From Deltaproteobacteria bacterium RBG_13_61_14 (lineage in GTDB: Bacteria > RBG-13-61-14), in contig MGQK01000075.1 in the NCBI GenBank assembly GCA_001797815.1, forward strand, positions 1-14,847: 14,847 bases of DNA, read 5' to 3'. Within the stretch, counting starts at the first letter, position 1. Every line of letters starts with the position of its first letter. Below, one piece after another: positions 249-14,847 of the stretch. The notes beneath the pieces were generated by a model. It searched no databases. It was not told the origin of the DNA and saw only the letters and a program-made list of their open reading frames with translations. Both the position numbers and the translations under genes were made by a program.

Positions 249-286
249 ATATCGGTATCGGTGAAAGTTGAAAGTTGGAAAGTTGG
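249..286. repeat. Short-word tandem repeats
   Basis: Two short tandem series follow each other. TATCGG occurs twice at 249-260, and three near-copies of GAAAGTTG lie at 263-286. They run straight into the GGGGTCAG end of the neighbouring element. They are non-coding as far as I can see. Confidence 0.6.
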
Positions 287-525
287 GGTCAGAGCTTCAC
301 ATAATACATAACGAGGATGGTCCTTAATTGAACAATGAAATTACCATGAGTTTCAAGCACGATAACAGCGGACGGAGATTTTGCTCCACTTCTCCCAGCA
401 AAATCCTCCGAAAAAATAGGAAAAAATAGGGACAGTCACCTATTTTGCAAATGCGTCCTCCATGCCATGGCGTGTTCATTGCAGAGTTCACTTTCCCCTC
501 AGGTTTAAAGTAACGATCTGACCCC
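285..525. mobile_element. MITE-like or REP-like element with GGGGTCAG inverted ends
   Basis: The segment begins with GGGGTCAG (285-292) and ends with its exact reverse complement CTGACCCC (518-525). Inside are a perfect 8-bp hairpin (423-446) and a tandem duplication of AAAAAATAGG (411-420 and 421-430). It ends five bases beyond the stop codon of the nuclease gene. The only long reading frame inside (minus strand, 324-533) looks like a translation of repeat DNA rather than a protein. From memory, phrases of this kind occur around REP-associated transposase genes in deltaproteobacteria, so a non-autonomous copy or remnant is plausible. No transposase is present. The 8-bp ends are short, so chance cannot be excluded. 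Confidence 0.5.
423..446 (-). terminator. Hairpin followed by T-runs, candidate terminator for the nuclease gene
   Basis: On the minus strand an AAAATAGG arm, an 8-nt loop and a CCTATTTT arm form a perfect 8-bp stem. It is followed by TT and then a second T-run after CCTA. It lies about 85 bp beyond the nuclease stop codon. The stem is AT-rich and therefore weak, and it may simply be the palindrome of the surrounding element. Confidence 0.4.
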
Positions 526-529
526 GGAT

Positions 530-2161
530 TCATTCTTCACTGATCCCAGCCACTTCTGCTTCCGGCATTTTAAAAAGCTTCAATTCTGGCTGCTTGTTTA
601 TCCATGCTTCACGAGCGGCGGGGTTCTCTTTAATTGCTTTTTCTATCGCTAAAGTTTCCCTATATTCTGTTGCCTCAGCGGTCATTGTCCATTTTGCCGC
701 AAGTTCCATCTTTTCAACCTCCTCGCGAATATGCTTGAGATCTACCTTAAAAAATTCTTTGCGATAATTTACTTTGTTCATCTGCATCAAAAGCAAATGT
801 TTGTGTAGCCTATTTTCCAGCCCTGGGGCATCATCGCTGAAAATCAGCGCATGGACATCGAATTCAAATGGAACGCTTGAATCCCCCAGTTCACGAATTC
901 TATCAAGCGGTTCCAATCGGCGGGTAAGACCGATTTTATAGACATTCTCGCCGAATGATCCAATGTTGGAAATAATGTATACATGACCTCTCTTGGTCTG
1001 CTGCGCCATTGAAATGGCCCTCTGATTCCGTTCCTCGGCTTCTTTCAAACGTTGTGAAAGCTCTTGAAGCTGTTGTTCATATTTCCCCTTCTGCTCAGCG
1101 GTTGCTTTTTCAATCTGTTGTTGCGCCTTTTCCATTGCCTTGCGCAGAAGTTCTTCTTCCTTCTCGGCTTCCCTCATCGCGCGTTCATATTCTCTACGAG
1201 CTTTTTCCTCCTCACGAATCTGCTCTTTGATACGCCTTTGCTCCTCTCGCTCCTCCAACTTCAACTGTTGAGCAACGGCAGCCCACTTCAATTCATCCAT
1301 TCTTGCGGCAAGATATTCTTCTGTTATGCGAGCGTCCCGGAAAGCCTTTCCATTTAAATTCACGAGATTGAATGAATCCCGTATTTCCTGCTCCAGAGTC
1401 CCGGCATTATCATGTCGAACCCGAGACAAAGAGCTGTCCACTTTGCCGTTGAATGCATCAAGTACGAAGTTGGTGGCTGTTTCGCGCCTGTTTTGCTCAA
1501 CATATTCGCAAGTTGCAGCAGTGCTACTACGAATCAGGGATCTGGTTCGTTCTCTGGCTTTCTTTAATTCTTCGCCGGCCTGTGTGTGGCCAAAATCTTG
1601 GGCAAGATCATCAAGTAAGCTATGTCCAGGAATGATGTACTGGTCGCCATATCCCTCAATTATGTTTTTCATGGCTTTGACCGTCTGTTCATACAAGGAG
1701 GCGTTTTTCATCGCCTCATAAGCGCTGCCAGCGATTTCCTCTGCACGTTTATTGGCGTCTTGAACAATTTTAGCTGCCTCCACACTGGCCCGATCAAGTT
1801 GAGCTTTTGCCTCCTCTTTCGATGTTTTGGCTTTCTCTCTGGCTTCGGAAGCGACTGTTTTTGCTTCCTGATTTGCTTTTTCTAAGGTTGTCTGAGCGCC
1901 CTGATTGGCTTCATTGTAGATATTGACTGAGTCAGCTTTTGCTTTCTCCAATGTTTCTTGAGCGTCTCGGAGAATTTTTGCAGCTCTTTCATCAGCGTCT
2001 GCAATACCCTCGTATTTCGCAAGATGCTGGTTTCTAATTATTTGACTTTGAAGTTCAGATTCAAATTTATTCTTTTGCTTCCGTAAATTAAGCAGGGATA
2101 CAGATAAATAAATCGCTGTGGCAAACCCGAAAATTAATAAGATGATTAATAAGCTATTCAT
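530..2161 (-). CDS. Membrane-anchored DUF4041 and GIY-YIG-like (Mug113/T5orf172) nuclease, SNIPE-like anti-phage protein
   Basis: The 543-residue protein has four visible parts. One N-terminal membrane helix (about residues 3-24) has a basic stop after it (LRKQK). A long charged coiled coil rich in Ala, Lys and Glu spans about 25-150. A DUF4041-type region at about 150-300 contains GYGDQYIIPGHSLLDDLA, DAFNGK and an ARITEEYLAAR-type stretch. A second coiled coil (300-385) precedes a GIY-YIG-like Mug113/T5orf172 nuclease domain (392-475). Nuclease hallmarks are HVYII at 393-397, VYKIGLTRR at 407-415, R421/R423, and E449 in the metal-binding Glu position. A tail of about 65 residues follows. The ATG at 2161 has a strong AAAGGAGAG site seven bases upstream. 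Membrane helix, DUF4041 and GIY-YIG in this order match SNIPE, a membrane nuclease reported to cut phage DNA as it is injected. Function here is inferred from architecture. AT-rich composition suggests transfer. Confidence 0.88.
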   Translation of the reverse strand: MNSLLIILLIFGFATAIYLSVSLLNLRKQKNKFESELQSQIIRNQHLAKYEGIADADERAAKILRDAQETLEKAKADSVNIYNEANQGAQTTLEKANQEAKTVASEAREKAKTSKEEAKAQLDRASVEAAKIVQDANKRAEEIAGSAYEAMKNASLYEQTVKAMKNIIEGYGDQYIIPGHSLLDDLAQDFGHTQAGEELKKARERTRSLIRSSTAATCEYVEQNRRETATNFVLDAFNGKVDSSLSRVRHDNAGTLEQEIRDSFNLVNLNGKAFRDARITEEYLAARMDELKWAAVAQQLKLEEREEQRRIKEQIREEEKARREYERAMREAEKEEELLRKAMEKAQQQIEKATAEQKGKYEQQLQELSQRLKEAEERNQRAISMAQQTKRGHVYIISNIGSFGENVYKIGLTRRLEPLDRIRELGDSSVPFEFDVHALIFSDDAPGLENRLHKHLLLMQMNKVNYRKEFFKVDLKHIREEVEKMELAAKWTMTAEATEYRETLAIEKAIKENPAAREAWINKQPELKLFKMPEAEVAGISEE

Positions 2162-2971: not shown

Positions 2972-3096
2972 CCAATTGAGGCCAAGGCTATCGGCTTTCG
3001 GGTCTTGGCCGGGGAAAATGAGGGCCTGAGCCGGCATTTCCATTTCCGGCTGTCATTCAAGTTTGGGTTTTCAGAACCTTGCCTCATCTTGGCTCC
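2972..3096. repeat. Structured intergenic repeat, copy 2
   Basis: This 125-bp direct copy of 2265-2390 lies just upstream of the antitoxin. Two hairpins are visible: GGCCAAG (2980-2986) with CTTGGCC (3004-3010), and AGCCGG (3029-3034) with CCGGCT (3046-3051). The first hairpin is perfect here and imperfect in copy 1. No 18-bp flanking repeats are seen around this copy. The two copies bracket the toxin-antitoxin pair. Confidence 0.8.
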
Positions 3097-3411: not shown

Positions 3412-4473
3412 TCAGGGCTTGGCCGTCGGAGAAGGTGGTTCCAGTTTGAAGCCGAGGGATTGGGCGCGCTGGAATTCAGAGTTGGCGCGGGTGCGGTCGC
3501 CCTGCAGGGAATAGGTTTTGCCCAGGTAGAAATGCCCGGCCGGGTCGTCGGGGAATTCCCGCAGAAGTTCCAGCAAAATTTTTTGCGCCTCGGCCGGCTC
3601 CTTCTCGCTGATATAGACAATGGCCAGGTTGATCCGGGCCCGGCGGTTTTGGGGTTCGAGGCTCAGCACCCGCTGGTATTCGCGGACCGCCTCCGGGAAG
3701 CGGCTTTGGGTCGCGTAAATGTTGCCCAGGTTGAGGTGGGCCGGAAGGTGGTCGGGGTTGATCGCGGTCTCCAGGGTAAAGGCCGACTCGGCCCGGGGGA
3801 GGTTGTTCTGGTAAAGGAAGGCGATGCCCAGGTTGGAGTAGAGGGAAAGGCCGGCCAGCTCCGGGTGGAGCTTGATCGCTTGCTGGTAAAGCTCCACCGC
3901 CCGGTCGAACTCTCCCAGGGTGGACAGGCTCACGCCCAGGTTGTTGTAGGCCGCGAACAGCTTGGGATCGAGCTCGATCGCGCGCTGTAAATAGGCGATC
4001 GCTTCCCGGTGCCGGCCGAGGTTCTGGAGGGTCGAGCCGATTTCGAGTTGGATCCCGGCGTTTTTCGGATCGAGCCGACCGGCCCGCTCGAAAACATCCA
4101 GCGCCGGCGAAAGCCCCTGGGCGCCCTGCGAGGTCTCGCAGATCCCCAGGGAAAAAGGGTAGCCCGGGTTGGTCGGGTCCAGGGCCTGGGCGCGGGAAAA
4201 AGCCGACCGGGCCTCCTCTAGCCGGCCCAGTCGGCAGGAGCTGATGCCGAGCCCGTCATAGGCCGGCGCCAGGTCCGGATCGAGCCGGACCGCTTGCTGG
4301 AAGGCTTGCCGGGCCAAGGCGTTGTCTTGGAGCTGGAGCAGGGCCTGGCCGCGATGAAGCTCGGCCTCGGCCCGCTCGCGTCGGCGGGGGCAGCCCCGGC
4401 TTCCTGCCCCCAATGCCAGGATCATGGTCAAGGCCAGCAGCTTGGAGCCGGCCCTCCGGCAGTGCCGGTTCAT
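3412..4473 (-). CDS. Secreted or lipid-anchored TPR-repeat protein
   Basis: The 353-residue protein starts with a basic segment and a hydrophobic stretch (residues 11-24) followed by GSRGC, so Cys28 could be a lipoprotein cysteine. The lipobox is not canonical, and a plain signal peptide is the alternative. From about residue 35 to 343 it is made of roughly nine TPR units of 34 residues with the usual pattern. Examples are the AYDGLGISSCRLGRLEEA unit near 71-88, the AAYNNLGVSLSTLGEFDRA unit near 174-192 and the AHLNLGNIYATQSRFPEA unit near 245-262. TPR arrays form protein-binding superhelices, probably in the periplasm here, and the partner is unknown. The start ATG overlaps the glgA stop codon as ATGA and has GGAGG four bases upstream, so translation should be coupled to glgA. 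A link to glycogen metabolism is only suggested by this position. The hydrophilic C-terminus ends in SPTAKP. Confidence 0.85.
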   Translation of the reverse strand: MNRHCRRAGSKLLALTMILALGAGSRGCPRRRERAEAELHRGQALLQLQDNALARQAFQQAVRLDPDLAPAYDGLGISSCRLGRLEEARSAFSRAQALDPTNPGYPFSLGICETSQGAQGLSPALDVFERAGRLDPKNAGIQLEIGSTLQNLGRHREAIAYLQRAIELDPKLFAAYNNLGVSLSTLGEFDRAVELYQQAIKLHPELAGLSLYSNLGIAFLYQNNLPRAESAFTLETAINPDHLPAHLNLGNIYATQSRFPEAVREYQRVLSLEPQNRRARINLAIVYISEKEPAEAQKILLELLREFPDDPAGHFYLGKTYSLQGDRTRANSEFQRAQSLGFKLEPPSPTAKP

Positions 4474-5942
4474 GCCTCCGCTTTTTTACTGAGCGCCCGC
4501 TGATACAGGTCGAGGTATCGCTTGGCCGCGGCCGCCCAGGAGTGGTCTTCCTGCATGGCCTTCTTGACCAGTTTCTCCCAGGCCTTGGGATTTTTCTGGT
4601 AGAGCTTGACCGCTTCCAGGAGCTTCTTGAGCATGGCCGCGGACGAATATTCCTTGAACTTGAACCCGTTGCCCTTGCCCGTGCGCGGGCTGTAATTCTG
4701 GATGGTGTCGTCCAGGCCGCCGGTGGCGCGGACCACCGGGATGGTCCCGTACTTGAGGCTGATCATCTGGTTCAAGCCGCAAGGCTCGTAGAGCGAAGGC
4801 ATCAGGAAGAAGTCGGCGCCGGCCTCGATCTGGTGGGCCAGGGTGTCGTCGTAGGCGATCTTGATCCCCGCCTGCTTGGGATAGCGCCGGCCCAGTTCCT
4901 CGAACAGCGCGTGGTAATGCTTTTCCCCGGTGCCCAGCAACACAAACTGGACCCCCGCGGCCATCATCTGGTCAAAGGCGCGCTCGATCAGGTCAAAGCC
5001 CTTCTGGTCCGCCAGCCGCGAGATGCATCCCACCAGCGGCGCCCGGGGCTCCTCGGGCAGGCCGAAGCGCTTTTGCAGGTCCCGCTTGCAGGCGGCCTTG
5101 CCCTTGAGGTCTTTGACCGAATATTTGCTCGCGAGCTTTCCGTCGGTCGCCGGGTTCCAGATCGTGTAGTCTATGCCGTTGAGCAGCCCGTGGAGGTCTT
5201 TCTGGCGGCTTTGCAGCACGCCCTCCAGGCCGCAGCCGTATTCGGCCGTCTGGATTTCCTTGGCGTAGCCCTTGCTCACGGTATTGATCAGGTCGCTGAA
5301 GAGCAGGCCGCCCTTGAGGAAATTGACCTGGCCGTAGAATTCGAGGTAATCGGGGGTGAACCATTCCCAGTCCAGCCCGATCAGCTTCATGTCCCATTTC
5401 CAGAAGCTGCCCTGGTAGCCCAGGTTATGGACGGTGAAGACCGTCTTGACCCCGCCCAGCAAGGGATCGTCCTTGAGCAAGGTCTTCAAATAGACCGGGA
5501 TGAGCGCGCTCTGCCAGTCATGGCAATGGATCACGTCCGGCTTGAGCCCCCGCGCTTGGAGGAACTGGAGGGTAGCCCGAGAGAAAAAGGTGAAGCGGGC
5601 GGCGTTATCGGGAAAGTCACCCTCGGGCGTCCCGTACAGGGTGGGCCGGTCGTAGTATTCGTCGCATTTGACGAAATAGACCGGCACCGCGTCGTTCAGC
5701 CGGGTCTCCAGGATTTGGCCCTGTTTCTCGACCACTTGGTCCCCGATCAGGATGGGCACCTGCGCGCGGACTCCGGTATCCTTCGGATTCCACTTCTTCT
5801 CCATCCCCTGGTAACAGGGCAGGATGATGCTCGCTTGCACCCCTGCCCGCGAGAGCGCCAGCGGCAGCGCCCCGGCCACGTCGGCCAGTCCCCCGGTCTT
5901 GGCAAAGGGGACCACTTCGGAACTCGCTATCAAGACTTGCAT
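4470..5942 (-). CDS. glgA: Glycogen (starch) synthase, GT5 family
   Basis: GlgA transfers glucose from ADP-glucose to the non-reducing end of a growing alpha-1,4-glucan in the cytoplasm. The 490-residue product has the normal family length. It opens MQVLIASSEVVPFAKTGGLA, with the KTGG nucleotide-sugar loop at 15-18. Other hallmarks are HCHDWQ at 139-144, TVHNLGYQG at 170-178, GIDYTIWNPATD at 256-267, SRLADQKG at 308-315 (R309 and K314 bind phosphate), LLGTGE at 335-340 and YEPCGLNQM at 385-393 with catalytic-site Glu386. I place the start at ATG 5942, not at the longer frame start 5990, because the family begins at this Met and AAAGGAG lies seven bases upstream. It is the first gene of a coupled pair with the TPR protein. 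No other glycogen gene (glgB, glgC, glgP) is in the window. All key residues are intact. Confidence 0.96.
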   Translation of the reverse strand: MQVLIASSEVVPFAKTGGLADVAGALPLALSRAGVQASIILPCYQGMEKKWNPKDTGVRAQVPILIGDQVVEKQGQILETRLNDAVPVYFVKCDEYYDRPTLYGTPEGDFPDNAARFTFFSRATLQFLQARGLKPDVIHCHDWQSALIPVYLKTLLKDDPLLGGVKTVFTVHNLGYQGSFWKWDMKLIGLDWEWFTPDYLEFYGQVNFLKGGLLFSDLINTVSKGYAKEIQTAEYGCGLEGVLQSRQKDLHGLLNGIDYTIWNPATDGKLASKYSVKDLKGKAACKRDLQKRFGLPEEPRAPLVGCISRLADQKGFDLIERAFDQMMAAGVQFVLLGTGEKHYHALFEELGRRYPKQAGIKIAYDDTLAHQIEAGADFFLMPSLYEPCGLNQMISLKYGTIPVVRATGGLDDTIQNYSPRTGKGNGFKFKEYSSAAMLKKLLEAVKLYQKNPKAWEKLVKKAMQEDHSWAAAAKRYLDLYQRALSKKAEA

Positions 5943-6019
5943 TGTTCGCTCCTTTCCTTCTGGGCTAACACGATGCTGGACACCCCCCACAAACAGATCC
6001 TTGTTCTTTCCAGAATTAG

Positions 6020-6039
6020 GGGCGCGATTTATCGCGCCC
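6020..6039. other. Perfect 9-bp inverted repeat upstream of glgA
   Basis: GGGCGCGAT and ATCGCGCCC are separated by two bases. The repeat lies about 78 bp upstream of the glgA start. Neither side has a convincing T-run on the glgA strand, while TTTCCATTTTTT follows on the plus strand. It could be a regulatory hairpin in the glgA leader, an operator, or a dispersed palindrome. No gene on either strand clearly ends here. Confidence 0.5.
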
Positions 6040-6054
6040 TTTCCATTTTTTCCC

Positions 6055-6083
6055 TTGTCCTATCTTACGGCAACAGTTATAAT
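6055..6083 (+). promoter_or_regulatory. Sigma-70-type promoter, plus strand
   Basis: TTGTCC (6055-6060) and a perfect TATAAT (6078-6083) are separated by 17 bp. Transcription would start near 6090. There is no protein gene downstream on this strand, but a terminator follows at 6137-6157, so the likely product is a short RNA. Confidence 0.5.
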
Positions 6084-6089
6084 AAAAGC

Positions 6090-6157
6090 AATCCAGGTTA
6101 CTGGAGGCGGATGGCCCGGGATGGACTAGCGTGGACAAGCCCCGCAAGGGGCTTTTT
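6090..6157 (+). ncRNA. Candidate small RNA with five GGA motifs, divergent to glgA
   Basis: A predicted transcript of about 68 nt runs from a good promoter to a strong terminator. Its 5' part forms a hairpin TCCAG-GTTA-CTGGA (6092-6105), and the 3' part is the terminator hairpin. Five GGA trinucleotides lie between 6103 and 6135. Repeated GGA motifs are the binding mark of CsrA/RsmA-type proteins in RsmY/CsrB-like decoy RNAs, and CsrA is a known regulator of glycogen synthesis in other bacteria. The position beside glgA makes this suggestive. Only one GGA lies in or next to a stem-loop, and I have no homology support. A 20-codon plus-strand frame with GGAGG before its ATG at 6111 overlaps the RNA, so a leader peptide is another reading. 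Confidence 0.35.
6137..6157 (+). terminator. Rho-independent terminator
   Basis: AAGCCCC (6137-6143), loop GCAA, and GGGGCTT (6148-6154) form a perfect 7-bp stem capped by a GNRA tetraloop and followed directly by TTT, then CATTTTCT. The T-run is on the plus strand, so it ends plus-strand transcription. On the minus strand the hairpin lies eight bases past the ferredoxin stop and could help end that operon, but only TTGT follows it there. Confidence 0.75.
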
Positions 6158-6164
6158 CATTTTC

Positions 6165-6371
6165 TCAATATAACTTCTCAATCCGAATCCCACCCGCGGG
6201 GCAGCGCTCCAGGCACAGCTCGCATAACGTGCACTCGTCCTCTTCCGCCTCGAGCACGGCGAGCCGGCCCTCCTTCCACTCAAAGATCTTCACCGGGCAG
6301 ACCTGGGCCACCGCCGCCGCTTTTTCGCCCAGCTTGGCCTCATCCACGTGAATCTTGATGAACATCCCCAT
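6165..6371 (-). CDS. Small single-cluster [4Fe-4S] ferredoxin
   Basis: The 68-residue protein has one CxxCxxCxxxCP motif, CTLCELCLERCP, giving Cys47, Cys50, Cys53 and Cys57. A remote CP sits at Cys25. The other three cysteines expected for a second cluster are missing. In ferredoxins of this build the fourth ligand of the remaining cluster is usually the remote Cys followed by Pro, so Cys25, Cys47, Cys50 and Cys53 are the likely ligands and Cys57 a spare. It would carry single low-potential electrons in the cytoplasm. ATG 6371 has AAGGAG six bases upstream; a second ATG two codons later is possible. It follows the SucD-like gene by about 80 bp that are mostly an inverted repeat, so it may be the last gene of the set with the citryl-CoA lyase-like protein. 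The redox partner is not in the window. Confidence 0.9.
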   Translation of the reverse strand: MGMFIKIHVDEAKLGEKAAAVAQVCPVKIFEWKEGRLAVLEAEEDECTLCELCLERCPAGGIRIEKLY

Positions 6372-6382
6372 TTCTGGCTCCT

Positions 6383-6449
6383 TTTTGGATTTTAGATTTT
6401 CGATTTTGGATTAGCTGCTGATTTTGAATCCTCAATCTAAAATCCAAAA
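6383..6449. repeat. GATTTT-word inverted repeat between SucD-like and ferredoxin genes
   Basis: A perfect 16-bp inverted repeat is formed by TTTTGGATTTTAGATT (6383-6398) and its complement (6434-6449), with a 35-nt spacer. The right arm ends one base from the SucD-like stop codon. The same words occur again at 14609-14639. As RNA it could form a long AU-rich stem between the two genes. Confidence 0.8.
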
Positions 6450-6450
6450 T

Positions 6451-7350
6451 CTAAAATTCTTTCAGCGCCCGCCGCACCGCCTCGGGCAACTCGGAATAGC
6501 GGTCCACCACCTCGGCCCCGGCCTCGCGGAACCGGCGGACCTTGTCCCCGGCTGAGCCCGAGCCGCTCCCCGGCCGGACGATCACCGAGGCGTGGCCGAA
6601 GCGGGTGCCGGGCATCCGGTCCACGAACTTGCCGCCGACAAAAACCACCACCGGCTTTTTGAACTCCCGGCCCAGCTTTGTCGCCAGCACTTCCTCCTTG
6701 CTCCCGCCCGGCTCCACGTAGAGCACGATCACCTTGGTCTCAGGGTCGGCTTCAAAGAGCGGGAAGAAATCGAGGTAGGTGGACCCCACCACCGGGTCGC
6801 CGCCCATGCCGATGGCGGTGGAGACACCCAGGCCATGCCGGTGGAGCAGGTTGGCGACTTCGGTGGTCATGCCGCCGCTGCGGGAGATCACGCCCGCCGG
6901 TCCGGGCAGGAAGGCGCGCTCCGGGTTGGAGCCGCCCAGGTAGCCGAGCCGGGTCTTGCCTGGGCTGATGATCCCGGGCGAGTTCGGGCCGATGATGCGC
7001 ATGCGCCGGCTTCCGGCATAGGCCACCATCTCGATCACGTCCTGCTTGGGAATGCGCTCGGTCAGCACCACCGCCAGCCTGATCTCGTGGGTCGCGGCTT
7101 CCATCACCGCGTCTTTGGCCATGCGCGCCGGGACTGAAACTACCGCCGCGGTGGGGTGGTGCTTCGCGCAAGCCTCGGCCACCGTGTCATACACCGGGAT
7201 CTCGTGCACCTTCTCTCCGCCCTTGCCCGGGGTCACGCCGGCCACCACCTTGGCCCCGTAGTCCAGCATCTCCCGGGACATGCTCGCGGCCTCCCGGCCG
7301 GTGATGCCCTGGATCAGAATCGTCGTGTTCTCGTCCGCTAAAATCGCCAC
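6451..7350 (-). CDS. Succinyl-CoA synthetase alpha-subunit family protein (SucD-like)
   Basis: The alpha subunits of acyl-CoA synthetases carry the CoA site and the phosphohistidine of the nucleotide-dependent ligation of an acid to CoA. The 299-residue protein has the normal length. It shows QGITGREA (14-21) and TPGKGG (40-45) in the CoA-binding Rossmann part, GPNSPGIISPG (121-131, with Ser in place of the usual Cys), SRSGG (156-160), and GHASVIVRPGSGSGSAGDK (252-270), in which His253 matches the phosphohistidine. GTG 7350 is the start, with AAGGA about ten bases upstream. The preceding gene encodes a citryl-CoA lyase-like protein, so the acid could be citrate, as in the CcsB subunit of citryl-CoA synthetase. 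Succinate and malate (MtkB-like) are alternatives. The ATP-grasp beta subunit that such a protein needs is not in the window. Confidence 0.9.
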   Translation of the reverse strand: MAILADENTTILIQGITGREAASMSREMLDYGAKVVAGVTPGKGGEKVHEIPVYDTVAEACAKHHPTAAVVSVPARMAKDAVMEAATHEIRLAVVLTERIPKQDVIEMVAYAGSRRMRIIGPNSPGIISPGKTRLGYLGGSNPERAFLPGPAGVISRSGGMTTEVANLLHRHGLGVSTAIGMGGDPVVGSTYLDFFPLFEADPETKVIVLYVEPGGSKEEVLATKLGREFKKPVVVFVGGKFVDRMPGTRFGHASVIVRPGSGSGSAGDKVRRFREAGAEVVDRYSELPEAVRRALKEF

Positions 7351-7372
7351 CGCTCGCTTCCTTCTTTGTAGC

Positions 7373-7400
7373 CCCCCCTTCGCAACCGGGCGAAGGGGGG
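7373..7400. other. Perfect 11-bp hairpin between the lyase-like and SucD-like genes
   Basis: CCCCCCTTCGC (7373-7383) and GCGAAGGGGGG (7390-7400) are exact complements with a 6-nt loop. In the minus-strand messenger it begins five bases past the lyase stop codon and ends about 22 bases before the SucD-like start. No T-run follows on the minus strand, so it is more likely an RNA-stability or processing element, or a partial attenuator, than a full terminator. On the plus strand TTCATTT follows. Confidence 0.75.
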
Positions 7401-7405
7401 TTCAT

Positions 7406-8167
7406 TTACCGATCCGCCGGCCCGTCGTAAACTACTTCCTTAAGATCCACGGCGCGGAAGGGCCGCTCCCGCGTGATCTCCTCGTAGGCGTGGGCGGAAA
7501 GTCCGGCCGCCCGGCTGATCACGAAGAAGCCCCGGGCCAGTTGCCAGGGGAATCCCAGCTCGGCCAGGACCGCGGCCTGGGCCGCGTCGGTGTTGACCAC
7601 CAGCTTGCGGCCCATCGCCGCCTCGCTTTTAGCGCCGATCGCCTCAGCCAACTGGATATGCGGTCCGTCCTGCTTCAGCTCCCGCGCCAGGTTGAACAGG
7701 GCCAGGGTGCGCGGGTCCGCGGTGTGGTAGGGATGGCCAAACCCGGGGATGCGCTTCTTGGTCTGCTTATGCTCGCGGAGCAAGGTCTCGGCCATCTCCT
7801 CCGCCGATTTCCCCTCCGCCTGCATCCGCCGCACGCCCTCTTCCAGGAGTTTCTGGCACTGCTCGATCGCCCCCCCGTGATGGTCGCCCAGGGCCGAAAG
7901 CCCGGCCGCCACCGCGGACTGGATCGGCACCCCGCCCGAGGCCACAAACCGGGCCGCGCAGGCCGAGGGCGCAAAAACGCTGTGGTCCACCGTGGCCACC
8001 AGCACGGCCTCGATCAGTTTTCCCTGGGCCGGCGTGGGCATCTCACCCTTGAACAAGAGGTAAACCACTTCCCCGAACGAATGTTTCCCGATCAAATCCT
8101 GGATGGCGTAGCCCCGGATGTGAATGTGGTTCGGCTCCACTTTGGTAATCGCGGTCTTCCACTCCAT
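7406..8167 (-). CDS. Citryl-CoA lyase-like protein (short citrate synthase family)
   Basis: The 253-residue protein is a short member of the citrate synthase fold, close in length and motifs to citryl-CoA lyase, which splits citryl-CoA into acetyl-CoA and oxaloacetate. Visible active-site segments are GDHHGGA (94-100, His96/His97), PGFGHPYH (141-148) with His145, then DPR at 151-153, NTDAAQAA (192-199) with Asp194 in the position of the catalytic Asp, and ARGFFVISRAAGLSAH (211-226). Full-length citrate synthases have about 370-430 residues; the missing part is the N-terminal and small-domain insertions, as usual for the lyase. ATG 8167 has AAGGAG seven bases upstream. It is the first gene before the SucD-like protein and the ferredoxin. 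Together with a citryl-CoA synthetase it would replace ATP-citrate lyase in a reverse TCA cycle. It could also be a citrate or methylcitrate synthase relative. Confidence 0.82.
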   Translation of the reverse strand: MEWKTAITKVEPNHIHIRGYAIQDLIGKHSFGEVVYLLFKGEMPTPAQGKLIEAVLVATVDHSVFAPSACAARFVASGGVPIQSAVAAGLSALGDHHGGAIEQCQKLLEEGVRRMQAEGKSAEEMAETLLREHKQTKKRIPGFGHPYHTADPRTLALFNLARELKQDGPHIQLAEAIGAKSEAAMGRKLVVNTDAAQAAVLAELGFPWQLARGFFVISRAAGLSAHAYEEITRERPFRAVDLKEVVYDGPADR

Positions 8168-8200
8168 GTTCTTCTCCTTGCGAAACTCGATAAGGGCAAC

Positions 8201-8284
8201 GTGTCAGGTGTCGGGTGTCAAGTGTCAGGTAGAAGAGAACGGTAGCCATTTCTTACTTGACACCTGACACTTGACACCTGACAC
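8201..8284. repeat. GTGTCAGG-word inverted repeat between chemoreceptor and lyase-like genes
   Basis: The left arm (8201-8230) is built from near-tandem GTGTCAGG or GTGTCAAG words, and the right arm (8256-8284) is their reverse complement, with about four mismatches over 30 bp. The loop is about 25 nt. It lies 24 bp past the chemoreceptor stop codon and 33 bp before the lyase-like start, so it may end or protect the chemoreceptor messenger. Confidence 0.8.
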
Positions 8285-8307
8285 TCCCTCATTGGGTTGC
8301 CGGGCGT

Positions 8308-11028
8308 CTAAAGAGTAAAAGATTGTTTCGATTCGGATGCCTTCTGATTGTTGCGCTTGCGGCTGAGCTGGAATTGGTGGACCAGCTCGCGGAGGTCGTC
8401 GGCCAGGAACTTGAGGTTTTCCATGGCCTGGGTCATCCCCTGCACCCGGTCGCGGTTGGCATCGGCCACCTGCCGGATCTGCTGCATGGCGATCACCACC
8501 GCCTTGCTCCCCTTGAGCTGTTCCGCCTGCGCGGTGTTGATGAAGTTGACGATCTGGGAAATGTTCTCGATCGCCTGGGTGATCTGGCGCGAGCCCTGGG
8601 CCTGCTCCTTGGTCGCCCGCCGCACCTGGCGGGACACTTCCTCCATCTTCTGCGCCGCCCGCAGAATCTGATCCCCGCCCCGGGTCTGCTGCTGGGTGGC
8701 CGTCGCCACCTGGCTGATCAGCGCGTTGACTCCCTCGAAGAACTCCATCACCTGCTTGGCCTTTTCCGATTGCATGGCCGTGGCCTGGGCGATCTCCTGG
8801 GTCTTCTGGGTGGACTGGCGAATCCGGTTCAAAATCTGCTCCAACACTGTGCCCGCGCCCTCGGACAAAACCACCCCTTCTTCCACCGCCCGCGAGGCCT
8901 CGGTGATCGCTTTCACCGCCTTGCCCGATTCCTCCTGGACCGCCCGGATCAAGTCGGTGATCTCCGCGGTGCTGGCCTGGGTCCGCTCGGCCAGATCCTT
9001 GATCTCGTCCGCCACCACGGCAAAGCCCCGGCCATGCTCGCCGGCCTGGGCCGCAATGATGGCCGCGTTCAAGGCCAACAGGTTCGTCTCCTCGGTCACG
9101 TCCTCGATCACGGTCAGGATGTTCCCGATCTCCTTCGCCCGCCGGCCCAGGCTGCCGATCACCTCCGCCGCCTCCGCAGCCGAAACCCGGATGCGGCCGA
9201 TCCCGGCAATGGTCTTGGAAACCGAGCTCGCCCCTTGCTCGGCGTCTTCCGCCACCCGCTCGGACAGCCGCGCCGTATCCTGGGCGCCCGCTCCCACGCT
9301 CCAGATGGCGTTTTCCATCTCCTGGAGCGAGTTCATGGCCCGGCCCGCCTGCTGGTTCAGGCTCTGGACGTTTTCGGCCACTTCCTTGATCGAGGCGTTC
9401 ATCTCCTGGATCGAGGACGTGGTCTGTTCCACGGCGTTGGACAGCCCGCCCACGCTCTCGGCCACCTCTTCCACCGAGGCGCTCATCTGAAGGATCGAGG
9501 CGGATGACTCCTCCGCGGAGCGCGCCAGGGTCTCGATACTCTCGGCAATTCCCTGGATGCTCTGGTTCATTTCCTCCATCGCCGAAGAGGTCTCTTCGAC
9601 CGAAGCCGCCTGGGTGGAAGCGCCCGAAGCCATTTCTTCGGTGTGCTCGGTCATCTGGTGGGAGGCCTTTTCCAGGCCCTCTGAGGCCTCGCCGATCCGG
9701 CCCAGCATCGCCCGCAGCCGCTGCACCATTCGGATGTGGCTCCGGGCCAGGACCCCCAACTCGTCCTGGCTGATCACGGCCACGATCCCGCTCAGGTTGC
9801 CCTCGGCCACTTCCTGGATCGAGCGCATGATGCTCTGCAGCGGCTGGTTGATCTCCATGGCGGCAAAGTAGGTGTAGAAAAAGGCCAGGAACAGGGCCAC
9901 CACAATCGCGATGACCAGGAACCAAAGCAGGGTGCGGAGCTCTTTCTTGAAGGAGATCGTTGAGGAGACGAACACCAGGTCGCCCTTGTTCTCGGGCAAG
10001 ATGAAATGAACCAGCGTAAAGCGCTGGCGATTGAAGATGCCGCAAAAGACCCCGCTGTCATCCAGCCGGGTAATCAAGAGCCGGCCCCGTTTCCGGGTCC
10101 GATCAAATCCCTTATCCAGGTATTGAAAAATCAGGGTTTCTTCCTGGGTCCAGGCGGTGACCAACGGGTTTGCGCCCGCGCTATTCCGGAGAAGAATTCG
10201 GTCATCGGGGGATCGCTTCAGATCACCCAGCAGACCCGAAAGTTCCTCGGCCGAGGCCCCGGTCTCCAGGGCGGCCAGCAATCGCGGCGCCAGGATCGCG
10301 CATTCGTGAAGGACGCCATTTCCTCTTTGCATCTGATGAGCCTGGATGGACAGACTGTAGCCGAGCACGCCGGTCAGGGTGACCAGCACCACGCACAGGA
10401 TGACGATGGCCACCAGGAGTTTGGAGCGGATGCCCACGCGCAGTTGGTTGTATCTTTCCTCTAAGGCCAGGCCGGGGAAATCGGCCACCAGTCGTTCCAT
10501 ATAGGGATGGAGGGCGCGCTTGGAGGTGAAGAACTGGAAAAAGGACACCACGGCCCCCGCGGAGACGGAGCCGATAAAGAGCATCACGGTTTGGGCCCAG
10601 GTGAAGGAGTAGACGATTTGGATTGCGACCAGGAGGAACCCCATCCCGAAGAAATAGAAAGCGATGGACCAGGTCATCGCCCGGAAAGGGGTGGCCAGGA
10701 TCGAGTCCATCGCGGCCCTTGCCGCATCCAGGGAAAGGGTTTTCGTGTTTTCCCCGAGCCAATAGTTCCGAACCGGTTTTAAAAACCCCCAGACCAGATA
10801 AAAATGGGTTAAAACCAGGGAAAGGGCGACGCCGCCGATCAGAGTTAGGCTGAAGGGAAGAAAGACCTTGTCGGCCCGTAAGTCATAAAGCAGGTTCCCG
10901 ACGCGGAAGTTCAGCACGCTGCCGATAAACAGCACCAGGAGCGGCAGGCCGATCATGTTGGTGGGATAGATGGCCCATTGCAGATTCCGTTTGAATTGCT
11001 GGATATCGGCTGCTCGTCCTTCTGCCAT
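8308..11028 (-). CDS. Methyl-accepting chemotaxis protein with six predicted membrane helices
   Basis: Chemoreceptors control CheA kinase through CheW. From ATG 11028 the product has 906 residues. Predicted membrane helices are at about 19-40, 56-80, 117-140, 145-168, 203-226 and 366-389. The only large external part lies between the last two (227-365). A HAMP-like region follows (390-445), then a long coiled-coil signalling domain. Its hairpin tip is at about 634-684, with [19 protein letters not shown] and [12 protein letters not shown], the signature of the family. No CheR-binding pentapeptide ends the protein (it ends KQSFTL). I chose ATG 11028 because GGAG lies seven bases upstream. An ATG at 11070 overlaps the preceding stop as ATGA but lacks a spaced ribosome site. 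Standard receptors have two membrane helices, so the extra four are unusual. The ligand is unknown, and no other che gene is in the window. Confidence 0.92.
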
Positions 11029-11066
11029 CAGGGTCTCCGTTCGCCGGTCGGGCCGAGCCGGGCGGC

Positions 11067-11498
11067 TCATTCCTGGGCCAGAATCCAAAGCACGGTGAAG
11101 AGCGCGATCAGGCCCTCGCCCAAAACCGCCAGCGCGCCCAGCCCGATCCGCCACCCGCGCCGGGGACCCACCGCATAACCCAGCGGGCCGCCCACCACCA
11201 GCCCGGCGATGATGCAGGCCAAGGCCCGTTCGTTGCCCATCAACATGAAATCATACCGGTTGGGATAGAGGGTGGGCCGGTTCTCCAAGACCCCGGCCAG
11301 GTGGAGCAGGACCAAAAGGCCGTAGGCCAGGCAGATGACGGTTACCGCCGCGTAATTGATGGTCTGCACCCGCACCGGCACATGAAAATCCTCCAGGAAA
11401 TTCGAGACAATGGCATACAGCGTCCAGTTGATCATGATCGTCACCAGGATGACGTTCACGTCAAACAACCCGGGCGTCAGCCATTCCTTGATCGTCAT
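11067..11498 (-). CDS. Four-helix membrane protein of unknown function
   Basis: I do not recognise this 143-residue family. Four hydrophobic segments are visible at about 12-34, 48-70, 90-110 and 116-138. Between the second and third is a polar loop with [13 protein letters not shown], and RRGWR stands before the last helix. It has no signal peptide, no cysteine motif and no known enzyme motif. The start overlaps the lipB stop codon as ATGA, with GGAGG five bases upstream, so it is translated with lipB. Its own stop overlaps an alternative chemoreceptor start at 11070. The tight packing between lipB and a six-helix chemoreceptor suggests co-expression, and a membrane partner of the receptor is possible, but there is no direct evidence. 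Confidence 0.82.
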
Positions 11499-12211
11499 GC
11501 TTCCTCCTCCCCCGCTTGCACCAACAGTTCCTGTCTGGATAACTCTTCCATTGCCGCCCCAAAATTCAGGCCGAAGATCCGCACCAACTCCGGGATCACC
11601 TGCTCCGGCTCTGGCGCCCGCCCCAGCACTCGCGCCACCGAGGTCACCTCCCGGTCCGGCAGGCCGCAGGGCACAATATGCCGGAAATGCTTTAGCTCCG
11701 GGTCCAGGTTGATCGCAAAGCCATGGGTGGTCACCCGATCCTCAATGTGCACACCCAACGCCGCGATCTTGGCATCCTCCACCCACAGGCCGGGAAACCG
11801 GGGATCCTGCCTCGCCTCCACTTTCAACTCCCGGAGCAGGGCCAGCAGGAACTCTTCCAGCTTGCCCACGTAGCGCTTGGCTCCCAGGCGCAGCCGCTTG
11901 ATGTCCAGAACCGGGTAACCCACCAGTTGCCCGGGCCCGTGAAAAGTGGCCTTGCCGCCCCGGTCGGCCTGGTGCAACGTGATCCCCTCCTGGGCCAACG
12001 TTTCCCGGTCGGTTCGCAGTTCCGAGCGGCCTTCGTCTCCCCGCAGGGAATAACCGAAGGTGATGACCGGAGGATGCTCCAACAGCAAGAGATAACCGCA
12101 CCGCTCATCCTGACGCACCCGCTCCCGCAGCCGCTCTTGCCAGCGCATGGCACGCTCATACTCCACCGGCCCCAGCCACGCCCAGCCGATCCGCCGCGAC
12201 TCGCAACCCAT
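11495..12211 (-). CDS. lipB: Octanoyltransferase (lipoate biosynthesis)
   Basis: LipB moves the octanoyl group from acyl carrier protein to the lipoyl domains of target enzymes, the first step of lipoic acid synthesis; LipA then adds sulfur. From ATG 12211 the product has 238 residues, normal for the family. Motifs are HPPVITFG (46-53), RGGKATFHGPGQL (84-96), KIAALGVHI (148-156) with catalytic Lys148, HGFAINLDPEL (163-173) and IVPCGLP (179-185) with catalytic Cys182. A longer frame starts at 12322, but its first 37 residues translate a GCCT-word repeat and do not look like LipB. ATG 12211 has no ribosome site and sits inside a TATAAT box, which is odd. The gene follows the response regulator gene by about 130 bp and overlaps the next gene by four bases. 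lipA is not in the window. Confidence 0.93.
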   Translation of the reverse strand: MGCESRRIGWAWLGPVEYERAMRWQERLRERVRQDERCGYLLLLEHPPVITFGYSLRGDEGRSELRTDRETLAQEGITLHQADRGGKATFHGPGQLVGYPVLDIKRLRLGAKRYVGKLEEFLLALLRELKVEARQDPRFPGLWVEDAKIAALGVHIEDRVTTHGFAINLDPELKHFRHIVPCGLPDREVTSVARVLGRAPEPEQVIPELVRIFGLNFGAAMEELSRQELLVQAGEEEA

Positions 12212-12238
12212 TATATAAGCATAGCCTCGCAAAGACAA
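12210..12238 (-). promoter_or_regulatory. Sigma-70-like promoter overlapping the lipB start
   Basis: On the minus strand TTGTCT (12238-12233), a 17-bp spacer and a perfect TATAAT (12215-12210) are present. The end of the -10 box is the AT of the lipB ATG. A transcript from here would begin near 12203 and would lack that ATG. Either the promoter is a chance match, or lipB uses a downstream start that would cut into the conserved N-terminus. Confidence 0.35.
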
Positions 12239-12302
12239 GGCTTGAGGCTGAAAACCTCGGATAAAATATCGCAGTTCATCTCCATGACCCTCTTCTCTGC
12301 TG

Positions 12303-12347
12303 CCGAAAGCCTCTTGCCTCAAGCCTCCTGCCTGAGGCCTGCCTCAT
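12303..12347. repeat. GCCT-word repeats between the response regulator and lipB
   Basis: The gap is filled with near-tandem words of the form AAGCCTCTTGCCTC, AAGCCTCCTGCCTG and AGGCCTGCCTC. They run into the stop codon of the response regulator gene. A similar word set, with AAGCCTAATGCCTAACGCCT, occurs near 3380-3400 beside the TPR gene stop. Confidence 0.6.
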
Positions 12348-14461
12348 CCCCGCAGCCGACCCAGCAACCCTTTCTTCTCTTTCTGTTTGTGCTCCTCAAT
12401 CAGCTTCATCTCTTTCAGGGCGTGGCGGAAACGGGGGTTGAGCCGGAGCGCCTTCGAGAGCTCCGCCTCGGCCAAGGCATACTTTTCTTCCTGGATCAAG
12501 AGCGTGCCCCGATAGGCGTAGGCCGCCGCGCACTGGGGCTTGAGCTTGAGCGCCCGGGTCAAAAGCTCGTTCGCCTTCACCTGCACGGTCTTGCTCCGGC
12601 GGTTTTTCATGAAAGTGGCAAAAGCCAGGTGGGCGAGAGCGTCCCCGTTTTTCGGGTCCAGGCCCGCGGCCTCAGCCAGCGACTTCTCGGCCCCGTCCCA
12701 GTCCTCCATCTCCAAAAAGGCCAGGCCCGACTGAAAAGCCACCTCGGCCTGCATCTTGTCCTGGGCCTTGCCGCCCGGCAGAACCGGGTATTTCTTCGGC
12801 AGCAGCTCGTCATACTTCTCTTTGCTGACCACGTTCGACAGCGTGTTGAACGCCGTGGCCAGCCTGGTCAAGACTTCCTCGGACTTGGCCAGGATGTCGC
12901 CCGAGCTCATCAAAAACTTATCCGGGCTGAACTTCTTGCTCAGCTCGAAATACCGGCTCTTGTACCGGCTGAAATCAAAGGTCTGCGGCGTCATCCCCAT
13001 GATCTCGTAATAGTTCTTGTCCTTGATCTTCTCGAAAAACTCCAAAAGCTCGTCTTCCCGCCGGCGCTGTTGGTCAGCTTCTGAAGCTCCGGGCTCAGCC
13101 GCGGCCGGGACCGGAGCCTCGGCGGCTGGCTTCAACTCCGCAACCGGCGCCGCCGGGCCGGCCTGTTTGAGGTTATCCACCACCTCGGTCAGCGCGCCGC
13201 TCAAATCACCGGCCAGGTCTTCAAACCCTTCCGCCTCCTCGGCCACGGCCGGCGCCTTGGCTGCCGCTTCCGCCTCCGCCGCCGCCTCCCGGATCGGGAA
13301 CGGCGCCGGCGGCACTTCCGAGACCGGCTCCGGGCTCAGCCGCAGCATCTCCAGCACCAGGAAGGTTTGCAGCCCTTTGATGACCTCTTCCGAGTCGTCC
13401 GGGTCAGCCGGGGTCAGGTCCAAGAGCGTCTTGGTGCCGTCCACCGCGTCCAGGAACACCGCCTCCGCCTGCGAAAGCGAGAGCAGCATCTGGTGCTCGT
13501 AAAAGCCCGGGGCCAGGGCCAGGTAGCGCCGGGCCACTTCCTGATACAACTGCCCCTGCCGCGCCGGGCTGAAATGGCGCCGAAAACCCTGGTGGATCAC
13601 CCGGGGCAAATTGATCTCCGCCGGCCCGGCCGCCGCCGCCGCCTGGGCCTGGAACCCATACTCGCCTTCGGTCCAGCCGAACAGGCCGATCAGCTCATCC
13701 TCCGCCCATTGCCGCAACTGCCGGTGATACTCCTCGAACTTGAGGCAGCCCATCTTGACAAACAGCTCGGTCGGGTCTTGACCCCCCGCCGCCTTCCGCC
13801 GCGCCTCATAGGCCTGGTATTCCTGGAGAGAAATCTTTCCCTGGGTGAGCAGATACTGGCCGAAGTTGCCCTCGCCTTGGTCCAGGCTCAGCCAGCGGGG
13901 CGCGCCCGCCAGGAAAGAGATCGTCTTTTTCTCGCCGTTGCGGGCCACGCTCAAGAAGCCGGACATTTGTTTCTTCATCACCTCGACCAGCACCTGGTCA
14001 AAGGGTTTGGCCTGGAGCTTGCCCCGAAGCGGAGGCGCCGCCGCCGGCTTCGCGGCCGGGGCTTCCCGGGGGGCGGCAGCGGTCTCCGCCGGCTTGAGCG
14101 AAGCCTGCACGGCCTTGAGAAGCGCATCGTAAGTGAAAGGCTTCTCCAGGTAGTGCTCCACCCCCAACTGCTTGCGCGCCTGTTCCCGGTAGGGCTCGCC
14201 TTTGTAAGCTCCGGAAATGATGATGACCGGGAGCTTGGATCCCCGGTGGGTCTGCCGCACCTTTTTCAGGACTTCAATGCCATTGAGCCGCGGCAGCCGC
14301 AGGTCGAGGATCAGGAGATCGAACACGGTCTGGGCATAGGCCTTGAGCCCCTCGATCCCGTCCGGCGCGAGCGTGACCTCATAGCCGCGGCCGGCGAGGA
14401 AGTTCTTGAGCGCCTCCCGCAGCTTCTCGAAATCTTCAACAATCAAGATCTTCGGGGCCAT
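12344..14461 (-). CDS. Response regulator with PATAN/DUF4388-like, degenerate J-like and TPR regions
   Basis: The 705-residue protein begins with a complete receiver domain (1-122): acidic pair Glu9/Asp10, phosphorylation site Asp53 in LLILDLRLPRLNG, Ser83 and Lys107 in LEKPF. After an Ala/Pro linker comes a PATAN/DUF4388-like region (about 145-375) with FDQVLVEVMKKQMSGFLSV and GQYLLTQGKIS, then a second long Ala/Pro/Glu linker (380-465). A J-like segment follows (about 483-555, from NYYEIMGM to KYDELL) and TPR helices (570-690). The J-domain HPD motif reads SPD here (512-514), so the His needed to stimulate DnaK is absent. There is no DNA-binding domain, so the output is probably protein binding. 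I chose ATG 14461, the family-like start MAPKILIVED; a TTG at 14494 is the longer choice. Only a weak AGGG precedes the ATG. No histidine kinase is in the window. Confidence 0.88.
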   Translation of the reverse strand: MAPKILIVEDFEKLREALKNFLAGRGYEVTLAPDGIEGLKAYAQTVFDLLILDLRLPRLNGIEVLKKVRQTHRGSKLPVIIISGAYKGEPYREQARKQLGVEHYLEKPFTYDALLKAVQASLKPAETAAAPREAPAAKPAAAPPLRGKLQAKPFDQVLVEVMKKQMSGFLSVARNGEKKTISFLAGAPRWLSLDQGEGNFGQYLLTQGKISLQEYQAYEARRKAAGGQDPTELFVKMGCLKFEEYHRQLRQWAEDELIGLFGWTEGEYGFQAQAAAAAGPAEINLPRVIHQGFRRHFSPARQGQLYQEVARRYLALAPGFYEHQMLLSLSQAEAVFLDAVDGTKTLLDLTPADPDDSEEVIKGLQTFLVLEMLRLSPEPVSEVPPAPFPIREAAAEAEAAAKAPAVAEEAEGFEDLAGDLSGALTEVVDNLKQAGPAAPVAELKPAAEAPVPAAAEPGASEADQQRRREDELLEFFEKIKDKNYYEIMGMTPQTFDFSRYKSRYFELSKKFSPDKFLMSSGDILAKSEEVLTRLATAFNTLSNVVSKEKYDELLPKKYPVLPGGKAQDKMQAEVAFQSGLAFLEMEDWDGAEKSLAEAAGLDPKNGDALAHLAFATFMKNRRSKTVQVKANELLTRALKLKPQCAAAYAYRGTLLIQEEKYALAEAELSKALRLNPRFRHALKEMKLIEEHKQKEKKGLLGRLRG

Positions 14462-14539
14462 GGCGTTGACCCTAATCTTAATGCGGAACCTCAATCCGAG
14501 TCAATCAGGGGTGGAGACACCAGTGGACAATAATCAATG

Positions 14540-14553
14540 CACTGTAAACAGTG
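14540..14553. promoter_or_regulatory. Palindrome upstream of the response regulator gene
   Basis: CACTGT and ACAGTG are exact complements separated by AA, 78 bp upstream of the response regulator start. The size and symmetry fit a dimeric repressor site. TTTACA on the minus strand inside it could be a -35 box, but I see no good -10 at the right distance. Confidence 0.35.
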
Positions 14554-14608
14554 ATGAAGTCTCGTGAACTTGAACGGAAGACCAGCAGGCAGCAGTCAGG
14601 GGCCCGTC

Positions 14609-14639
14609 ATTTTAGATTTTGGATTTTTGATTTTGGATT
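14609..14639. repeat. GATTTT-word repeat, second site
   Basis: ATTTTAGATTTTGGATT and TTTGATTTTGGATT are near-tandem words of the same family as the inverted repeat at 6383-6449, but here there is only one arm. Apart from this repeat, the palindrome and the plus-strand promoter, I see nothing in the gap 14462-14788. Confidence 0.7.
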
Positions 14640-14714
14640 GAAGAGAGAAAAAGCATCAGACGGAAGGCAGAAGGGTAAAGGCTTTCTCCCCTTCCCCCTC
14701 CCTTCAAGTTCCGC

Positions 14715-14743
14715 TTGACAAGCTCCTTTTTGCCTCTGCTAAT
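14715..14743 (+). promoter_or_regulatory. Promoter for the plus-strand gene at the right edge
   Basis: A perfect TTGACA (14715-14720) is followed after 17 bp by GCTAAT (14738-14743), four of six matches to the -10 consensus. It lies about 45 bp upstream of a start codon with a good ribosome binding site. Confidence 0.5.
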
Positions 14744-14788
14744 CTGACTCTTGCCCTGATCCTGGAGGATTTGATTACCGGAGGCAAG

Positions 14789-14847
14789 ATGCAGACCCAT
14801 GCGAAAAGTTCCCCCAGCGCCCGAAGGCTTCCCCTCGCAACCGGCCC
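14789..14847 (+). CDS. Start of an unidentified plus-strand gene, cut by the window edge
   Basis: ATG 14789 has GGAGG five bases upstream (14780-14784) and a promoter at the expected distance. The first 19 residues, MQTHAKSSPSARRLPLATG, are polar and basic and do not identify a family. The frame is open to the end of the window. It is divergent from the response regulator gene. The call rests on the promoter, ribosome site and start together, not on homology. Confidence 0.5.
   Translation, partial: MQTHAKSSPSARRLPLATG

Follow-up and report, generated by a model that had tools for sequence, protein, structure and literature searches.

The window, a stretch of 14,847 nucleotides from Deltaproteobacteria bacterium RBG_13_61_14, carries what is, by its sequence, an intact relative of SNIPE (PD-Lambda-1), a known bacterial defence protein of the inner membrane that cleaves phage DNA during its entry. 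Taken together, the evidence makes it very probable that the product is an anti-phage nuclease of the SNIPE family, tethered to the membrane and cutting injected DNA, whose gene probably arrived horizontally. We find an intact frame, the domains of the family, its catalytic residues and membership in the PD-Lambda-1 profile family. The open reading frame occupies positions 530–2161 of the minus strand and encodes 543 amino acids from an ATG start. It is open from end to end, and an AAAGGAG Shine-Dalgarno motif, read directly from the sequence, lies about 5 nt upstream of the ATG. The protein matches the PADLOC PD-Lambda-1 model PDLC03977 nearly over its full length (E 9.6e-117, profile positions 39–491 of 496), the second PD-Lambda-1 model PDLC03976 (E 4.6e-114) and phrog_1847 (E 8.7e-126). 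On the two PADLOC models it scores 380 and 389 bits, compared with 658 and 647 bits for the protein of phage PhiR26_1. SNIPE was formerly called PD-Lambda-1, as is evident from the SNIPE plasmids having been derived from pKVS45-PD-lambda-1 (PMC13190303). Assignment to SNIPE follows from the agreement of the two dedicated PADLOC models with the Pfam domains and the alignment of catalytic residues, which bears out the proposal of a SNIPE-like membrane nuclease made in the first-pass annotation. The profile search suggested there for DUF4041 (PF13250) and MUG113/T5orf172 returned all of these domains above the curated cut-offs.

Domain architecture and catalytic residues

The protein had been described as one N-terminal membrane helix followed by a coil, DUF4041 and a GIY-YIG domain with Glu449, and hydropathy, Pfam and alignment concur in this order (all coordinates below are on the minus strand). 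A single transmembrane helix is predicted at about residues 3–25 (2087–2155), at the same position as in homologues. By hydropathy alone this is the sole such stretch in the protein (mean hydropathy 2.44), and the positive residues that follow it (LRKQKNK) suggest an N-out, C-in topology. A variable, Ala/Glu-rich coiled coil of low conservation spans about residues 26–150 (1712–2086; helix 2–168 in the structure model). It is followed by a region conserved within the branch, residues 151–231 (KAMKNIIEGYG..., 1469–1711), in which conservation reaches 0.66–0.85. The DUF4041 core, residues 232–287 (1301–1468), matches PF13250 with an E value of 3.6e-14 and 52.8 bits against a cut-off of 27; with respect to the positive, DNA-binding surface expected of a SNIPE DUF4041, a simple charge count over residues 232–294 gives 9 K+R and 11 D+E. 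The GIY-YIG nuclease domain, residues 392–485 (707–988), is recognized by both MUG113 (PF13455, 3.9e-15, residues 408–485) and T5orf172 (PF10544, 6.2e-14, residues 392–485). A C-terminal tail, residues 486–543 (533–706), completes the protein and has a length common to homologues. The label "chromosome segregation ATPase" carried by homologues was rejected, because Pfam places no ATPase domain in the window protein.

Glu449, encoded at 815–817 within the GIY-YIG domain, corresponds to Glu414 of E. coli SNIPE in an alignment of 18 sequences and is invariant in all 18. Residues Y395, K409, R421 and N465 of the window protein also match E. coli SNIPE in this alignment. Conversion of E414 to alanine abolishes the defence conferred by E. 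coli SNIPE (PMC13190303). The residue of the window protein opposite SNIPE Trp257 is Lys292; no gap interrupts the alignment at this point, but an adjacent Trp leaves the pairing ambiguous by one residue. The change of Trp257 to Arg strengthens SNIPE defence against Bas14, and W257R is frequent among homologues (PMC13190303).

The full-length AlphaFold2 model, of low confidence at pLDDT 71, has a helix at residues 2–168 and a centre that is also helical, followed by a long helix and, from residue 392, a beta-alpha domain. When only the nuclease domain was modelled (pLDDT 65), the best eight structural matches are all Slx1/HIGLE GIY-YIG nucleases (Z 4.2–5.1), proteins with roles in DNA repair and related processes that share the fold with the window protein and, in contrast to it, have neither a membrane helix nor DUF4041. 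These matches agree with a GIY-YIG fold, although a Z of about 5 for a low-confidence model is weak when taken alone, so the assignment is made on the sequence evidence. A Foldseek search with the full-length model was dominated by noise from long helices, and Slx1 appeared further down the list. Sequence searches for solved structures found none for the nuclease domain and only coil-driven matches for the whole profile.

Relationship to E. coli SNIPE and to the branch of homologues

For E. coli SNIPE (PMC13190303, PMC9519451) we used the 500-residue protein XSB42081.1 of phage PhiR26_1, a lambda derivative in which the gene is labelled PD-lambda-1 and the glutamate is at position 414. The two proteins are collinear in membrane helix, coil, DUF4041, GIY-YIG domain and tail, with E414 in the place of E449. 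Overall identity is 34% and is distributed very unevenly: 63 of 94 positions are identical in the GIY domain (67%), 13 of 55 in DUF4041 and 14 of 74 in residues 151–231. The window protein is longer by 35 residues ahead of the GIY domain, which starts at residue 392 rather than 357, and its tail after RKEFF has 72 residues rather than 64. The weak identity in DUF4041 and residues 151–231 implies that the phage or partner recognized may differ from that of E. coli SNIPE.

A pattern scan with the window protein as seed retrieved 17 homologous loci, a set that favours the branch of the seed by its construction and is no census of SNIPE. The genome collection contains a further fifteen intact homologues (538–592 aa), from at least six phyla, all of which have the helix, the coil and the tail; they are assigned to Pseudomonadota, Bacteroidota, Planctomycetota, Ignavibacteriota, Thermodesulfobacteriota and Abyssobacteria (under Hydrogenedentota). 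The closest found, from Candidatus Abyssobacteria SURF_17, is 68% identical, has the same architecture and at 563 aa carries about 20 residues more than the window protein, in the N-terminal coil. Interrupted frames are seen in two homologues, from Dyadobacter (L018 8220–9083) and a Myxococcales MAG (L017 7896–9266), the latter stopping just past the catalytic Glu; these reflect decay or assembly error.

The very long coil and the 65-residue tail had been put forward as marks of a separate branch. Both are present in the 15 homologues, in which the tail after RKEFF has 65–77 residues, and the tail of E. coli SNIPE is comparable, so neither feature serves this purpose. As judged by alignment, what separates the branch from E. 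coli SNIPE is instead the region 151–231, in which the window protein is 54–78% identical to its branch and matches E. coli SNIPE at only the 14 of 74 positions given above. The phrog_1847-type branch, including the E. coli P2-prophage form, might represent a functionally distinct SNIPE subtype, a tentative reading that we regard as rather doubtful. Its residues 151–231 (KAMKNIIEGYGDxYIIP...) are highly conserved from one phylum to the next, and E. coli SNIPE matches them poorly. Such a pattern would be consistent with a single conserved partner being recognized, as opposed to the fast-changing N-terminal adapter of SNIPE. Should the branch see a different injection partner, one of its members would be the obvious second protein for studying how SNIPE works. 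In the tree E. coli SNIPE sits on a very long branch, which makes its position uncertain; the experimentally studied protein is divergent relative to the branch seen here across many phyla.

Members of this branch also occur in E. coli itself. A similar gene is present in about 178 of the 5,426 complete E. coli genomes (64% of the query matched, at about 65% DNA identity). The one copy that was opened (L041 5413–7089) belongs to the same branch and is placed, within a P2-like prophage, between cI and the integrase; its product, WP_022645415.1, is now named "SNIPE associated domain-containing protein". The gene URC10493.1 of the P2-like phage vB_EcoM-813R9 is likewise placed between cI and integrase. 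Its product shares the domain order of the window protein and is 53% identical to it over its own length, residues 151–231 included, but has a shorter tail, with 52 residues after RKEFF. Across a wide range of hosts, homologues were found on plasmids as well as in phages and prophages. A published survey (2026) places SNIPE homologues in 33% of well-sequenced clades, with about 500 distinct homologues from many phyla, 59% of them with a single membrane helix (PMC13190303).

This breadth bears on the earlier description of the gene as lying outside the described hosts of SNIPE. The family was already known from many phyla (PMC13190303), and homologues of the same branch occur in Bacteroidota, Planctomycetota, Pseudomonadota and others, so the description holds only in the trivial sense that the host phylum is hardly sampled. 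The phylum is represented by three genomes in the collection, of which the other two are without DUF4041; in the relatives search DUF4041 was found in 2 of 145 genomes, the host included. The window protein is a further member of a known family in a poorly sampled phylum. With the branch present in many phyla and in E. coli prophages, the annotation is sound and no surprise, and what is gained is a clean SNIPE annotation for a barely sampled bacterial phylum.

Surroundings of the gene and base composition

The contig of 48,401 bp starts at window position 1, so that just 529 bp are available beyond the end of the SNIPE gene. On the right side follow, in order, a 122-bp repeat, a MazF/VapB-like remnant, a second copy of the repeat, a TPR protein, glycogen synthase, a ferredoxin-like protein and a CoA ligase. 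The toxin-antitoxin remnant and repeats noted earlier were all recovered. The MazF/PemK toxin remnant is a frameshifted 70-aa frame at 2534–2746 of the minus strand (PF02452, E 1e-5; three-frame reading), the C-terminal coding of which is still readable in another frame (region 2400–2746). The DUF2281/VapB-like antitoxin retains an intact frame at 2731–2925, also of the minus strand (Pfam 26.4 bits against a cut-off of 26.5). The two copies of the 122-bp dispersed repeat, at 2265–2386 and 2972–3093 of the plus strand and 93% identical, bracket the remnant. A third copy is found elsewhere in the genome (C79:46608–46728), the three being 87–93% identical. Beside the stop of the SNIPE gene, window positions 265–529 present inverted ends, GGGGTCAGA ... 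TCTGACCCC, at 285–307 and 503–525, and short pieces of this segment recur at 14 further sites in the genome. It looks like a degraded repeat element, and the repeated pieces past the gene may be the reason the assembly stopped nearby.

The proposal that the gene lies in a defence island fared less well, since the right flank is housekeeping apart from the MazF remnant and the left flank is cut off where the contig stops. The assembled surroundings of the gene show no defence island; the left side, beyond the contig, could contain one. Among the neighbours of the 17 homologues, a survey recommended with that proposal, there are scattered matches to defence genes (PD-T4-4, AbiH, N6-methylase) and phage genes (integrase, RecT, tail), together with metabolic genes and many that are neither defence nor phage. 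No recurrent partner gene emerges from this picture: no family accounts for more than 3 of the 111 neighbours in the tables shown.

The AT-rich surroundings that had been reported are confirmed by measurement, with a GC content of 0.41 over positions 1–2260 against 0.62 over 3412–14847, and a GC3 of 0.42 for the SNIPE gene against 0.83–0.84 in two flanking host genes. The patchy distribution and the low GC3 suggest horizontal arrival, probably as a single-gene module.

Proposed mechanism and alternative explanations

Membrane-anchored cutting of injected phage DNA is the most likely function. E. coli SNIPE has been shown to be located at the membrane, to cleave DNA during injection and to contact the tape measure (PMC13190303), and from that protein we infer the topology, the DNA cutting and the phage target of the window protein. 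During injection of a phage genome, the N-terminal region, DUF4041 or both would meet the injection machinery, either the tape measure protein or a pore protein of the host. The incoming DNA would be held by DUF4041 and cut by the GIY-YIG domain, Glu449 being the catalytic residue, while tethering to the membrane would spare the chromosome.

The same nuclease might instead have been the superinfection-exclusion gene of a prophage of which only a remnant persists, serving that now-lost prophage and not the cell. In P2-like phages and prophages, homologues are placed between cI and integrase, which speaks for this, as do a homologue in a Marinitoga phage near genes for a CI-like repressor, a methyltransferase and an integrase, another in a lambdoid phage, and the AT-rich, foreign-looking DNA in which the SNIPE gene resides. 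Yet no neighbouring gene in the window is recognized as a phage gene, the flank present in the assembly consists of housekeeping DNA, and many homologues lie outside prophages amid unrelated genes, so that we hold a prophage origin of this kind to be possible but on the unlikely side. That the protein is a housekeeping coiled-coil and GIY-YIG protein, for example in chromosome segregation or repair, is scarcely credible. The "chromosome segregation ATPase" label on phage homologues and weak, coil-driven FliH and DivIVA matches would favour it, but those matches reach 20 bits against cut-offs of 200 and 260, the profile matched over almost its whole length represents a defence protein that has been tested, and the occurrence is sparse (2/145 genomes in the relatives search, with the other two genomes of the phylum lacking the domain), the gene being linked, as far as seen, to no conserved locus across the host clade. 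A decayed, non-functional copy might be suspected from the frame-broken MazF remnant that adjoins the gene, but decay of the SNIPE gene itself is very improbable in view of its full-length open frame, its ribosome-binding site and the retention in the window protein of all columns invariant among homologues.
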